Assembly: GCF_023168405.1 (NCBI RefSeq)
Contig: NZ_AP025285.1
Coordinates: 1,052,001 to 1,116,000, forward strand
Length of the DNA: 64,000 bases
Direction of reading: 5' to 3'
From: Leptogranulimonas caecicola
Lineage (GTDB): Bacteria > Actinomycetota > Coriobacteriia > Coriobacteriales > Atopobiaceae
Part shown: one piece after another, positions 3,762-64,000 of the stretch
Layout of the letters: the number at the start of each line of letters is the position of its first letter
How positions within the stretch are numbered: position 1 is the first letter of the stretch
Notes under the pieces: model-generated
The model's database searches: none
What the model saw: the letters and a program-made list of their open reading frames with translations, nothing else
Told to the model about the DNA's origin: nothing
Made by a program: the position numbers and the translations under genes

Positions 3762-4286
3762 TTAAAGGGCGATGCCCAGGCAGATCTCGGTGACGCCGTC
3801 GAAGATCAGGCAGATGCCGCCAACGAGCATGATGGCCTCGGCCATGGAGAACGGGGTGATGAAGGTGAGGATGCCGCAAAAGACGGTAAGGATGCCAAGC
3901 ACCAGCCAGAGGCCCCAGCGAGAACCCTCGATGTGACGGATGCTGAAGGCGTCGAAGATATCCCACACGCCGGTCATGAAGATGACGCAGCCCAGAAGGA
4001 TGACCAGGTACATCATGGACCAGCCGGGCCAAACCATGATGAAGATGCCCAACACGATCTCGACCACGGCAAGGACGATGTTGGCAGCGCCGCGATCGGC
4101 AGGGTCATGACGGAAATAGCCCACAATGGTGCCGATGCCGGCGAAGATGAACGCCCACCCACATACGTAGACGAGGAAGAGAGCCGAGGCGGCCGGAGCA
4201 ATAAAAAAGCCCATGCCCAACAGGGTGAGAGCCACGCCCAAAATAATGATGGACGCTTTAGTGCGCTTGAAAAGCGACTGATTCAT
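3762..4286 (-). CDS. HdeD/DUF308-family membrane protein
   Basis: The 174-residue protein has six hydrophobic segments in three hairpin-like pairs, as in the DUF308/HdeD family of small inner-membrane proteins. In enterobacteria HdeD is linked to acid resistance, but the role here is unknown. I chose the ATG at 4286 (MNQSLFKRT) because GGGAGG stands 4-10 bases upstream; a longer frame to 4343 lacks such a site. The gene stands alone, convergent with lctP across a bidirectional terminator. Confidence 0.75.
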   Translation of the reverse strand: MNQSLFKRTKASIIILGVALTLLGMGFFIAPAASALFLVYVCGWAFIFAGIGTIVGYFRHDPADRGAANIVLAVVEIVLGIFIMVWPGWSMMYLVILLGCVIFMTGVWDIFDAFSIRHIEGSRWGLWLVLGILTVFCGILTFITPFSMAEAIMLVGGICLIFDGVTEICLGIAL

Positions 4287-4469
4287 GGTTACCTCCCATG
4301 GAATAAAGCCATTGATGTCTTCACTTGTGCCCATTAGGGACATACATCAATACCCATAATTCACGACTGAGGTACCAGTGGTATCCAAATGCCCTTTTCG
4401 CGCTGCTCAAAGTCCTTGCCGATAAACCCTGCCGCCTATTCTGCGAGCCGTCCTTAAATTCGATCCCCT

Positions 4470-59279: not shown

Positions 59280-59537
59280 TTAAACAAATAGATCTTTATG
59301 GCTGATCCATATCCTGCCGAGAAGCCCACCCCCCCCCTCATCAAGGACTACGTTTGCAACATACTTCCCTTTTCCTATGCCGAGATCTTGAAGCGCATCT
59401 TCAGGAGAAGAGAAACCGGCTTCTTTATCAACCAGATTGTTACCCCTGCCATAAGACCAGAACCATCCGTCATCGTCTTTTACGATGGTATAGAGATTGC
59501 CCTTATAACCCCTATGTGTGTATACAGCATGATCCAA
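59280..59537 (-). CDS. Small hypothetical protein with a G9 tract
   Basis: I do not recognise this frame of about 85 residues. The region YTIVKDDDGWFWSYGRGN...FSSPEDAL has the look of a real small domain with aromatic pairs, but the start is only a TTG without a ribosome site, and the frame continues upstream against the broken regulator on the other strand. Near the 3' end it holds nine consecutive G (C on the plus strand, 59329-59337) next to copy 10 of the 13-mer. It may be a remnant. Confidence 0.35.
   Translation of the reverse strand: MDHAVYTHRGYKGNLYTIVKDDDGWFWSYGRGNNLVDKEAGFSSPEDALQDLGIGKGKYVANVVLDEGGGGLLGRIWISHKDLFV
59315..59327 (+). repeat. Dispersed 13-mer TGCCGAGAAGCCC, copy 10
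   Basis: Exact copy one base before a run of nine C (59329-59337). Confidence 0.75.
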
Positions 59538-59565
59538 ATCACCATCTACCGTTGGAGCATGACTA

Positions 59566-60727
59566 TGGGCTTCTGGTCTCAGAGGACCAATACGAGAGCG
59601 ACCATGCCCACGCCAACGCGCTGCAACGGCTGCGCTGTGACCTGGTGACGCTTAACAAGCTGTTCGCCCGTCGAGATTCGCTGACTCATCCAGATGCTGA
59701 GCCTCATCGCACGGTCACCACCACGCCTCAGGGGCAGAATTGCTATACCTACCACGTGGAGCGGCCCTTCTCGGCAGAAGAAGCGTTTATATTGGCCAAT
59801 GCGTTGGCACACTCGCGCCTAGCCGACTCCCAGGAAAAAGAGCAGCTTCTGGAAAAGTGAAGTCCCTCCACTACCGAGAAGACCATCGCCCTATAGCCCC
59901 TTGCATTACTTATAGGCCCAGGCCGGAGGCTTCGGCAGCTCTGCTGACGAATTATCGTGCGGTGGCGCGGGCGGTGGACAGGCTGAACGAGATGGGCAAC
60001 CGCCGAGGTGGCAAGCTGGCCCCTATCTCGCTTATCTACGGGACGCTGGGCCGGATTTTGATTTGGTGGCGCAACCTAGGCAAGGCTGCTTGCTAGAGTG
60101 CGAATTACTGCCCATCGCGGTGCATGAGGATCGCGGGCGCTACTACATGAGCTCCCGGTTCATCGATCTGGGGGAGACCCCAGAAGGCCCCGCTACGTGG
60201 TGCACAATGATGGCTATTTGAACTATCGACTGGATCGCATCATTCCCGAGAGCATCAAAGATTATGCCGATGAGGGCTGCCCCGGCATGCTGCCCTATCG
60301 CCTGACAGATCCTGCGCCCCAGAAACGCGCCGGCCTCACCGAGCAGGAGCTTTTTACACTGGAAGCCAGTTACGAGATGTATGCTACCTCGGATCCTCTG
60401 CGCCTGGAGCTCGAAGCCGAGGGCCCCGTACTCAAAGCCATTGCCGACGCCTTTAACCCAGACAGCGAGGATTCTCCCCTTGCCGATAAGAAATCCGTCC
60501 GCAAGCTGCCAGATGGCAAGACTCGTATTGAGGTACCGGTTTCAGATGGCGCCGTCCTCATGGGACGTCTGGCAAGCTTTGGGCCTTCTGCCCACGTGGT
60601 AGGTGATCGCAGGCTCAAGGAGACTTACGTCCGCTTTTTATGCAATGTACTGGGCGCCTACGCTGACGATCCCCAGGTAGGAGAAGAAGTGAGAGCTTGG
60701 GCGAGAGGTGCTATTGACGAAGGATAA
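59566..60727 (+). pseudogene. Broken WYL-domain-type regulator
   Basis: Three pieces in different frames read like one regulator: a first part ending near 59860 (ALQRLRCDLVTLNKLF, then AEEAFILANALAHS), a middle part to about 60190 (REDHRPIAP; ELLPIAVHEDRGRYYM) and a last part from 60197 to 60727 (VHNDGYLNYRLDRIIPES). The last resembles the WYL domain's RLDRI region followed by a C-terminal domain. At least two frameshifts separate them and the N-terminal helix-turn-helix is not evident. I judge it decayed; the 60197-60727 part alone could be translated. Confidence 0.5.
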
Positions 60728-60780
60728 GCGATCAAAATAGCGCACCTTCGGTTTATAGGACAGATAGTGTGCTGTGATAA

Positions 60781-60817
60781 GGGGTGTTGACCTGCGCCAG
60801 ACCTGCGTCAACACCCC
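60781..60817. repeat. Inverted repeat GGGGTGTTGAC/GTCAACACCCC
   Basis: Perfect 11-bp arms around a 15-base loop, directly inside the left end of the element. The right end has the shorter relative GACGTTGAC-CTGC-GTCAACGTC at 61361-61382. Confidence 0.85.
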
Positions 60818-60892
60818 ATAATCTGTAGGCCAAAAACCTGTAGACCAAATTTACCTTCATTATTTATAAGCACTCTTTGCGGCTAAAAGGGA

Positions 60893-60924
60893 GCGGTGTG
60901 AAAGCAGGGCTGCTTTCACACCGC
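60893..60924. repeat. Perfect 14-bp hairpin
   Basis: GCGGTGTGAAAGCA and TGCTTTCACACCGC surround GGGC. No T run on the plus strand; a T-rich stretch follows on the minus strand, so it could terminate minus-strand transcripts. Confidence 0.8.
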
Positions 60925-61017
60925 AAGCCTCAGATAAATCCTGGAGGGCCAAAAGCAGACCTGTCTGTGAGATGGGGATGCAGGGCGGATGGGATTCGGG
61001 CTGGGCGCCGTTCCATG

Positions 61018-61037
61018 CCTACTAAGTACTTAGTAGG
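61018..61037. repeat. 20-bp perfect palindrome
   Basis: CCTACTAAGTACTTAGTAGG is its own complement. Its half-site recurs at 61119-61130 (GTACTTAGTAGG) and, with the centre changed, at 61147-61159 (TGTACTAAGTAGG), so a protein-binding site cluster is plausible. Confidence 0.85.
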
Positions 61038-61360
61038 CCAATTTTGCCCAAAATCTGCGTCACTTTTTATTTTAGTATTACATCACCCAAGCTCACGGAG
61101 TTGGTTCCATATTCAATTGTACTTAGTAGGCACATGCCGAAGGAAATGTACTAAGTAGGCGGAAGCGTTGTCGCTCTTCTTATGGTCACTCTTCTGCATC
61201 TTGGCCCCGCAGACCGCCTTTTTCATCGGGCCCTGCAAATCCTGGATGTAACGACTAGATTTTTCTGTCTTCAGCTGGGGCACCACTGCATTGGACAGCA
61301 CATCTTCTGTGCGAGTTCCCGTGTTCAAATGAGCCTTCCGTATTTAAACACCCAAAAAGG

Positions 61361-61382
61361 GACGTTGACCTGCGTCAACGTC
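61361..61382. repeat. Inverted repeat GACGTTGAC/GTCAACGTC
   Basis: Perfect 9-bp arms around CTGC, just inside the right end of the 668-bp element; mirrors the larger repeat at 60781. Confidence 0.85.
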
Positions 61383-61527
61383 ACCATTCACAGCACGCTT
61401 TTTGTCCTATAAGCCGCACCTTCCTTAGAGGAAAGCACGCTTGACTCTTCACACTATTGAATACATGAGTTGGCTGCATCCGCTTATCATGTTGAGTTTG
61501 GAAATTTGCACTTTATCAGCCATAATT

Positions 61528-61581: not shown

Positions 61582-61938
61582 ATGATTGCAGATGCAAGCC
61601 ACAGCCTTCCCGTTATGCCAGAACGAGTAGGTCTCGCTGAACTTGGACGGTCTTCCAATTGGCGAGATGCAGTAAACCGCGATGGCATCATTGAAATATC
61701 CGAGCATAATCGTCCTCGCTATTTTGTTGTCACACCTGATTACCTTGCACGCAATGATGCTTATACACAGGCTCTTGAATTAAAACTTAGTGAGATTGAG
61801 TCAGAACTTGATCGTCTCGATATAGAACATGCATTACTACGCGATAAAGCCTTAGCTGAGCAAGGCGAACTGCCTCTTTCTGGTCCTGAACTCAAAACTG
61901 CTGCGTTAGACCTTATGGAAAAAGCTGGTCTTATATGA
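61582..61938 (+). CDS. Antitoxin of a type II toxin-antitoxin module (Phd/YefM-like)
   Basis: The 118-residue protein has an N-terminal segment (GLAELGRSSNWRDAVNRDGIIEISEHNRPRYFVV) typical of Phd/YefM-type antitoxins that bind DNA as dimers, then a long helical, acidic part that should wrap the toxin. AGGAG lies eight bases before the ATG. Its stop overlaps the start of the next gene by four bases (ATGA). It is lower in GC than the housekeeping block, suggesting transfer. Confidence 0.72.
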   Translation: MIADASHSLPVMPERVGLAELGRSSNWRDAVNRDGIIEISEHNRPRYFVVTPDYLARNDAYTQALELKLSEIESELDRLDIEHALLRDKALAEQGELPLSGPELKTAALDLMEKAGLI

Positions 61939-62316
61939 CAAGACAAGAGTTATTTCTTGAACTAATTGACGCTCTTTCCAATATACCTGGCTTGACTATT
62001 GAACCTATCGTTTTCGTAGAGGAAGCAAGAGCGCTTGATGAAGCTTATCCGGCGCTAGAGGATCTTACACCTGTTGTAGTAGCGATAATTCGTGCCATGA
62101 AAGATTTGGCCGCCGGACGCGTGTCAAGTTCTTCCCTCTCTCTCAAGCTTGAGGGTGCGCGATCCTATCATTTTCAAAAAAAACCGTTCGCAAGGTGAAA
62201 AGACAGAACTAAGAATTGTTTATCGCATCTTAGATAATGGTGCTCTATACATCTTGGCTTTTGGCAATCGTTGGAGACCCGAAGCCATTTACAGAAGAGC
62301 TGCAAAACACATGTAA
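61935..62316 (+). pseudogene. Toxin partner, frameshifted at an A8 run
   Basis: The frame starting at 61935 reads 87 residues and stops at 62198. Removing one A from the A8 run at 62176-62183 joins it to a second frame (TELRIVYRILDNGALYILAF, then GNRWRPEAIYRRAAKHM) ending at TAA 62316, giving about 126 residues. That second part resembles RelE-like toxins. So either the toxin is inactivated by a one-base insertion or full-length protein needs slippage at A8; a base-call error is also possible. Confidence 0.65.
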
Positions 62317-62513
62317 TGAAAAAGTCGTTTAAGCTCCAGTGGATAATTGAGAGGATGCACCACGAGGAATTCACTTAATTTGTTGAAGATCGAAGACCAT
62401 CGGTCAAGAAAGGATCTCGCAGAAGCCGTACTCCCTGCCCTCGCCACAATAAACACCAGAATATAATCTATATCTTGATATGCAGATTCAGTTATAACGA
62501 CTTTATAGTTCAT
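62289..62513 (-). CDS. ParE/RelE-like toxin, probably truncated
   Basis: The 74-residue frame begins MNYKVVITESAYQDIDYILVFI, like ParE/RelE toxins, with FLDRWSSIFNKLSEF in the usual second helix. Family members run to 90-100 residues and end in a beta-strand region that is missing; the last codons lie opposite the end of the first toxin. It overlaps the stop of its antitoxin by 11 bases. Truncation makes activity doubtful. Confidence 0.55.
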   Translation of the reverse strand: MNYKVVITESAYQDIDYILVFIVARAGSTASARSFLDRWSSIFNKLSEFLVVHPLNYPLELKRLFHYMCFAALL

Positions 62514-62773
62514 ATTTCTCCCGAAGCTGATTCACAGCAGCGCCTGCTTCGGAATACGAGCCTTCTGCGACCTCTTTCTCCCCCGTCACTTCACGTGCAA
62601 GAAGATTGGCCCTTGCAAGCTGGGGCTGTAGGCTTTCCCAGTACTTTGTTGACATAGACCACCAATGCACCTGCCCTATTGTGCGTTACCGTGACAGGTC
62701 CGTCTTTTGACCTCACTAACTCGGTAGACTTCACTGTATTATTCATGTCATGCATCGAAACGCACTTTGGCAT
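62503..62773 (-). pseudogene. Antitoxin partner with a one-base frameshift
   Basis: From the ATG at 62773 (AAGAAGG upstream) the frame reads MPKCVSMHDMNNTVKSTELV and on to ALVVYVNK, a RelB/Phd-like start. One base too many at the AACAAAG stretch near 62643 shifts the frame; in the other frame the protein continues YWESLQPQLARANLLAREV to LREKYEL and stops at TAA 62503, overlapping the toxin ATG as expected for an operon. Confidence 0.62.
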
Positions 62774-62822
62774 TATTACCTTCTTAGTGGTCAAATCGCA
62801 GTATATAAAGGCAAAGTTCGAT

Positions 62823-64000
62823 TTAGTTATCAGAGGCCAAATCCCAGAGCGACCCATAGACTTCATTGCCCAAAAGCCAGCCCTGCTGAGTGGGCACGTA
62901 GGCGCCAGAAGCCACTTGCTCTATCAATCCACGCTCGCACAGATCATCAATCGTTGCATCCACTGCCTCTTGGCCAATGGCTTTATAGGCACGTTCCTGC
63001 AGTTCGCGCCCAATGCCATAAGTAGTACGAGCCGCAAGCATCAGATCTTCTGCCGCGGCCTCACGAGCAGTCAGCGATTCTACTTCAAACTGCAGCGCTT
63101 GCAAATTGCCACAAGCCTCAGCGATTTCTGCTGCAGTAGAAGTGCATCTAAGACGCAGGCGCGCTGCGGCGGAGGCGTTTCTCGGCAGCTGAGGCATGAG
63201 CTGACGCAGCTTCTCATAGCCCGCAGCATCAACCATGGAAGCCGCAGCCACACCAAATCCCAGGTAGGGAGTGCCGTTCCAGTAAGCCAAGTTGTGCAGG
63301 CACACCTCACCGGGCCAAGAATAACTAGCCACCTCATAGCGTGAGAACCCCTGAGCCGTGAGGATGCGCTGGGCGGCGAGCATGGCGTCAGCCTCGGAGT
63401 CTTCTGAGGGTTGGGCCATCTCACCCGATTCCACCGCAGCATAGAAGGGCGTTCCTTCCTCGATGATGAGGGGGTAGATACTCAAGTGACCCACGCCCAG
63501 CCGTATCGCCTGCTCGATGGAATAGGCGAAACTTTGAGGGGTTAGGTAAGGTATCGCACCCATGAGATCGCAGGATACCCGCAGCCCAGATGCCACTGCA
63601 GCCTGCAGCGCCTCGCGGGCTTTCTGTGCCGTGTGTACACGGCCAAGCGCGCAAAGCTCCTCGTCGATGAACGATTGGACGCCTAAAGAGATTCGTGTGG
63701 CTCCCCCATCGCGCAGCGCGGCGAGGTGGTCAGGAGTGAGCGACTCTGGGTTGGCCTCGCAGCTGAGCTCCTGAATAGAACCGTAGCTGCAGATCGTTGT
63801 AGCTAAATTCCCAAGTTCATCGGGTGCAAGCATGGTAGGCGTGCCACCGCCAATGTAGGCAGTGGCAAGGCTGTCAAGCAGGCCAGACTCCCCCACCTGA
63901 CGCACCATCGCTTGCAGGCTCCGAGCATAGCCGTGCATAAGCGGCGCCCGATGAGGCGTGGCGCAAGAGGCAAAGTCGCAATAGGCGCACTTGCGCAAGC
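62823..64000 (-). CDS. hemW: HemW-type radical-SAM protein, 5' end outside the window
   Basis: About 392 residues are visible; the frame runs off the window end, so the start and the first cluster cysteine are missing, while KCAYCDF shows the other two. YIGGGTPTML near the N-terminus, CEANPESLTPD and RISLGVQSFIDEEL mark the HemN/HemW group. HemW is a haem chaperone rather than a true coproporphyrinogen oxidase; its lack of the HemN-specific N-terminal region cannot be tested here. It is followed by the second toxin-antitoxin module on the same strand. Confidence 0.88.
   Translation of the reverse strand, partial: LRKCAYCDFASCATPHRAPLMHGYARSLQAMVRQVGESGLLDSLATAYIGGGTPTMLAPDELGNLATTICSYGSIQELSCEANPESLTPDHLAALRDGGATRISLGVQSFIDEELCALGRVHTAQKAREALQAAVASGLRVSCDLMGAIPYLTPQSFAYSIEQAIRLGVGHLSIYPLIIEEGTPFYAAVESGEMAQPSEDSEADAMLAAQRILTAQGFSRYEVASYSWPGEVCLHNLAYWNGTPYLGFGVAAASMVDAAGYEKLRQLMPQLPRNASAAARLRLRCTSTAAEIAEACGNLQALQFEVESLTAREAAAEDLMLAARTTYGIGRELQERAYKAIGQEAVDATIDDLCERGLIEQVASGAYVPTQQGWLLGNEVYGSLWDLASDN

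Follow-up and report, generated by a model that had tools for sequence, protein, structure and literature searches.

Between gpx and hemW, Leptogranulimonas caecicola carries a hairpin-rich stretch of some two-thirds of a kilobase with inverted ends, which raises the question of what it is and how it came to lie there. The window, that is, the whole 64,000-nucleotide stretch of DNA analysed, corresponds to positions 1052001-1116000 of a 2.0-Mb single-contig genome. A first-pass annotation had described a 668-bp element with 29-bp ends agreeing at 25 of 29 positions. This pair (60749/61416) is indeed present, and is the sole inverted pair of such quality within 1 kb across the whole window; each end had, however, been drawn one base too long, because the 60749 C/61416 G pair belongs to a perfect 8-bp target duplication, GCACCTTC, found on both sides (60742-60749 and 61416-61423). 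The element spans exactly 60750-61415 (666 bp), starts with GGTTTATAGG at 60750 and ends with CCTATAAGCC at 61415. Its inverted ends are 28 bp long and match at 24 of 28 positions, with GGTTTATAGGACAGATAGTGTGCTGTGA on the left (60750-60777, plus strand) and, in a minus-strand reading, GGCTTATAGGACAAAAAGCGTGCTGTGA on the right (61388-61415).

The internal landmarks described earlier were all recovered. The GTTGAC/GTCAAC palindromes inside both ends correspond to a left subterminal hairpin with an 11-bp stem (GGGGTGTTGAC...GTCAACACCCC; 60781-60817, plus strand), the pairing of which is kept in some copies via compensatory changes, and to a right subterminal hairpin followed by CCTTTTT (61361-61382, minus strand). 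The latter is terminator-like, and has the place and form of the 5′ hairpin of IS1249-type elements. A terminator scan detected the perfect 14-bp hairpin at 60893-60924. The 20-bp perfect palindrome, CCTACTAAGTACTTAGTAGG, lies at 61018-61037 and consists of two overlapping TACTWAGTA sites, while the two further half-sites, both on the plus strand, are GTACTTAGTAGGC (61119-61131) and, 29 bp on, GTACTAAGTAGGC, which has one mismatch (61148-61160). The element had been called gene-free; no intact gene is present in it, but its minus strand retains a decayed transposase start (ATG, 61226-61224), the only coding capacity left. This remnant (61190-61226) reads MKKAVCGAKMQK... and contains half a zinc ribbon.

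The decayed neighbours of this copy had been regarded as the sign of a recombination-prone site; they are not specific evidence of one, because the whole stretch between gpx and hemW is different in the sister species. On the left, positions 59354-60727 hold an apparently decayed regulator gene, with its frame in pieces and a C-terminal part matching the WCX domain (PF25583); the element begins 22 bp past its stop codon. On the right, two small gene pairs (61582-62866) read like toxin-antitoxin modules, one of them with a broken second gene; no Pfam match was obtained for the two scanned frames of the first pair.

A genome-wide search with the ends, proposed earlier as a check, revealed that they recur: the genome contains about 10 copies of the element, both ends being present in six of them, together with two solo ends. 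The nine further copies showed 74-79% BLAST identity to that in the window. The sister species, Olsenella sp. KGMB02461, has about nine copies, including partial ones, and this congener was the only one of the 60 relatives searched to contain full copies. Target duplications, also proposed as a check, are not limited to the window, since perfect 8-bp duplications flank the copy at 330 kb (TAGAACAG) and one copy of the sister species (CAGGAACT). No duplication could be recognised around several complete copies, which would be expected if these are old but does not prove it. Both species have a copy beside a sequence resembling a tRNA gene, with the insertion points ~30 bp apart, and each species is uninterrupted at the point where the other has its insertion; the element has therefore moved. 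Three insertions (L004/L053, L008/L058 and L009/L057) are common to both species, which places the origin of the family before the species split; the two insertions that are not shared show later or lineage-specific movement. The pair L003/L049 was rejected as orthologous; these are independent insertions, and were excluded from the divergence test described below. The region of the 330-kb copy lacks the element in the sister species, although it is not a precise empty site. The left flank of another copy (L004, genome position ~1596.5 kb) is TAGAACAG, which also forms the duplication around the 330-kb copy (L002), while its right flank differs; recombination between copies is possible, or else the match arose by chance.

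The origin of the element can be traced through its ends, which are homologous to those of IS1249-type elements. Full elements with the same ends and encoding a transposase, the third check proposed, were found outside this genome, in related genera. Genes for IS1249-family transposases are flanked by a 15-mer, TTATAGGACAAAAAG, in G005, G010, G075, G084, G099 and other Coriobacteriia genomes, while the reversed sequence, used as a control, gave zero matches; G005 also has an internally deleted IS1249-type element with both ends. The sequence TTATAGGACAAAA of the left end also terminates IS1249-type elements, and an annotated IS1249-family element of Collinsella aerofaciens (NZ_OY725717.1) has GGCTTATAGGACAAAAT at both ends. 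In the latter, a hairpin containing GCGCAGGTC comes after the 5′ end, succeeded by a T-run and then TTTAAAT. On the minus strand, the right third of the MITE shows the same order: GGCTTATAGGACAAAAAG, a hairpin with ACGCAGGTC, TTTTT, GTTTAAAT and ATG; the TTTAAAT of the IS1249-type layout is kept ahead of the decayed transposase start with its half zinc ribbon. The better-kept copies read MKKAVCGxCGAKMQK from this ATG. With an IS1249 protein profile built from zinc-ribbon N-termini, the minus-strand frame (a remnant of ~20 codons) gave E < 0.01 in 8 of 19 copies, none of the shuffled controls falling below 0.07; the remnant of the window copy itself scored weakly.

The right third is best explained as the 5′ end of the parent insertion sequence, made up of the inverted repeat, a hairpin terminator, a leader and the beginning of the transposase gene. 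For the left and middle parts, no source in the parent could be traced. A hairpin is present at both ends of the MITE, and both ends may descend from the 5′ end of the insertion sequence. A search of both genomes of the genus revealed no IS1249 (NF033544) or IS256 (PF00872) transposase, and the family now looks orphaned of its transposase. ISL3 parentage, suggested by the 8-bp duplication, was rejected, PF01610 being absent from the genome; a duplication of this length is also reported for ISCth4, a member of the IS256 family (PMC7780238). The subterminal TGTAAA described for the IS256 family in general (PMC7780238) was not found in the ends of this element, nor is it evident in those of the intact IS1249-type elements compared, which read TTATAGGACAAAA or TTAAGGGTCAAAA.

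With no intact coding sequence, ends in common with an autonomous element, dispersed copies, target duplications and empty sites, the element is very probably a MITE whose ancestor was an IS1249-type insertion sequence (IS256 family). That it was a MITE was one of the possibilities raised by the first-pass annotation, and every sequence test put forward there (further copies, recurring ends, target duplications, and full transposase-encoding elements elsewhere) supports it. An IS1249-type transposase, supplied in trans, would have recognised the 28-bp ends and mobilised the element, generating the 8-bp target duplications, presumably by the copy-out/paste-in route known for the IS256 family (PMC7780238). 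The body of the transposase gene has been lost, and its place taken by ~300-400 bp that include the TACTTAGTA-type site array and a 14-bp hairpin; the right hairpin might be an inherited terminator that stopped outside transcription from entering the transposase gene. The transposase acting in trans would later have been lost from both genomes, in neither of which is one detected.

Two observations concern IS1249-type elements in other genomes. A relative with a 1.0-Mb genome (G033) has eleven exact copies of the IS1249-type end, several of them at contig edges, which suggests a repeated element of this kind breaking the assembly. In addition, a 1628-bp record of C. aerofaciens labelled as a circular plasmid (L192, NZ_OY725723.1) contains almost nothing beyond an IS1249-family element and ~280 bp; this could be a circular intermediate, or else an artefact of the assembly.

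The suggestion that the locus is a paired regulatory region would apply only to the internal palindrome array, the sites of which are putative protein-binding sites as judged from their sequence. A reading that adds to, and does not exclude, that of a MITE is that the array itself has the function, its sites being bound by a DNA-binding protein specific to the genus (a regulator or a nucleoid protein); the MITE would have spread them and selection preserved them, and some copies would now serve the host. We consider this a tentative possibility, somewhat short of an even chance. The copies agree on average at 83% of positions; agreement is 98% in the palindrome and ~82-96% in the stretch leading to the next sites. 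Sites of the GTACTTAGTAGGC form occupy fixed places, with two overlapping inside the palindrome and one lying 93 bp on from its plus-strand site, a spacing found in all 18 copies holding both; the others are mostly found at 21 or 29 bp to one side and, to the opposite side, at 29 or 42 bp. The two genomes of the genus contain 45 and 43 occurrences of the 13-mer GTACTTAGTAGGC, which was found in none of 98 relatives. A search for the 20-bp palindrome across 84,980 species, from which the window's own genome was possibly left out, yielded the genus plus single matches in Jettenia and Nocardia, which were taken as chance. Between true orthologues, the core diverges by 6.6%, compared with 12.2% for the rest (Fisher p = 0.003), although the counts are small and come from three pairs; further, the likeness of the cores could also be explained by gene conversion between copies, or by selection acting while the element was mobile.

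The same motif, in another fixed geometry, also appears in a second intergenic repeat that lacks the MITE ends. This repeat is ~120 bp long and has four GTACTTAGTAGGC-type sites at spacings of ~49, 38 and 15 bp. It was found at L043:2263-2375 and 3965-4080, L044:2629-2806 and 4350-4465, and L045:2709-2865 (genome positions ~62.8, 64.5, 150.2, 151.9 and 744.2 kb); that at 150.2 kb adjoins an isolated right end of the MITE family. A bolder extension of the binding-site reading is that the MITE distributes a fixed-geometry candidate array for a genus-specific protein, and that selection has maintained the array after loss of the transposase, seeding a host regulatory or chromosome-organising network; this we regard as rather unlikely.

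A gene for a structured non-coding RNA, dispersed as a repeat, is an improbable reading of the element. The pairing of the 14-bp hairpin (60893-60924) is maintained by compensatory changes at five of its 14 pairs, with 98.2% of cells paired in 12 copies and a covariation score exceeding that of all 500 shuffles; template switching, however, can also produce compensatory changes in a DNA palindrome. For the whole consensus fold, covariation contributed only -4.29 of -114.79 kcal/mol, and no sigma-70-like promoter was found in the element. Membership of an Rfam RNA family was rejected, no covariance model giving a match up to E = 10. The remaining option of the first-pass annotation, a remnant of a replication or conjugation origin, can be dismissed almost entirely: its repeated sites in fixed geometry are iteron-like in outline, but no relative was found among 72,556 plasmids and 50,697 phages, the palindrome is absent from viral contigs (a lone 16-mer match on one of these was taken as chance), and it is contradicted by the ~10 copies scattered over the genome, with their target duplications and empty sites.

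The persistence of a MITE family where the matching transposase is not detected is of interest in itself. The main interest, however, lies in the palindrome array, with a 13-bp site present ~45 times per genome, in two repeat families, in this genus only; the identity of its binder would tell whether the host has recruited a mobile repeat.

The MITE shares with its IS1249-family relatives the ends GGCTTATAGGACAAAA, the order of 5′ subterminal hairpin, T-run and TTTAAAT, and what reads as the zinc-ribbon transposase start. Two intact IS1249-type relatives also have 8-bp duplications (GGGACGGG in L161 and CACTTCGT in L168), while the end of IS1249 proper (of Tn5432), GGGTTAAGGGTCAAAAAGTGTGTCC, is more distant. 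Unlike the IS1249 elements, the MITE lacks the transposase body, is about half as long and has a hairpin at both ends; its internal palindrome array was not seen in them. The REP/REPIN repeats moved by RAYT (PMC3116915, PMC3733652) likewise consist of palindromic intergenic motifs in inverted pairs with GTAG inside, but the motif described here rides in a MITE with IS256-type ends, and no Y1/RAYT transposase was detected. A RAYT/REPIN source of the palindromes was rejected, the Y1 transposase (PF01797) not being detected in either genome of the genus. The open-access literature searched contained no relevant report of IS1249 or IS256 MITEs, or of MITEs in Coriobacteriia or Olsenella. Bacterial MITEs are also short and noncoding, have inverted ends and target duplications, and are moved in trans; some, such as the Correia elements with their IHF site, likewise carry protein-binding sites (PMC10969869). 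The present family differs from these in its IS1249-type parent, and in that its internal sites form a fixed multi-site array confined to one genus.
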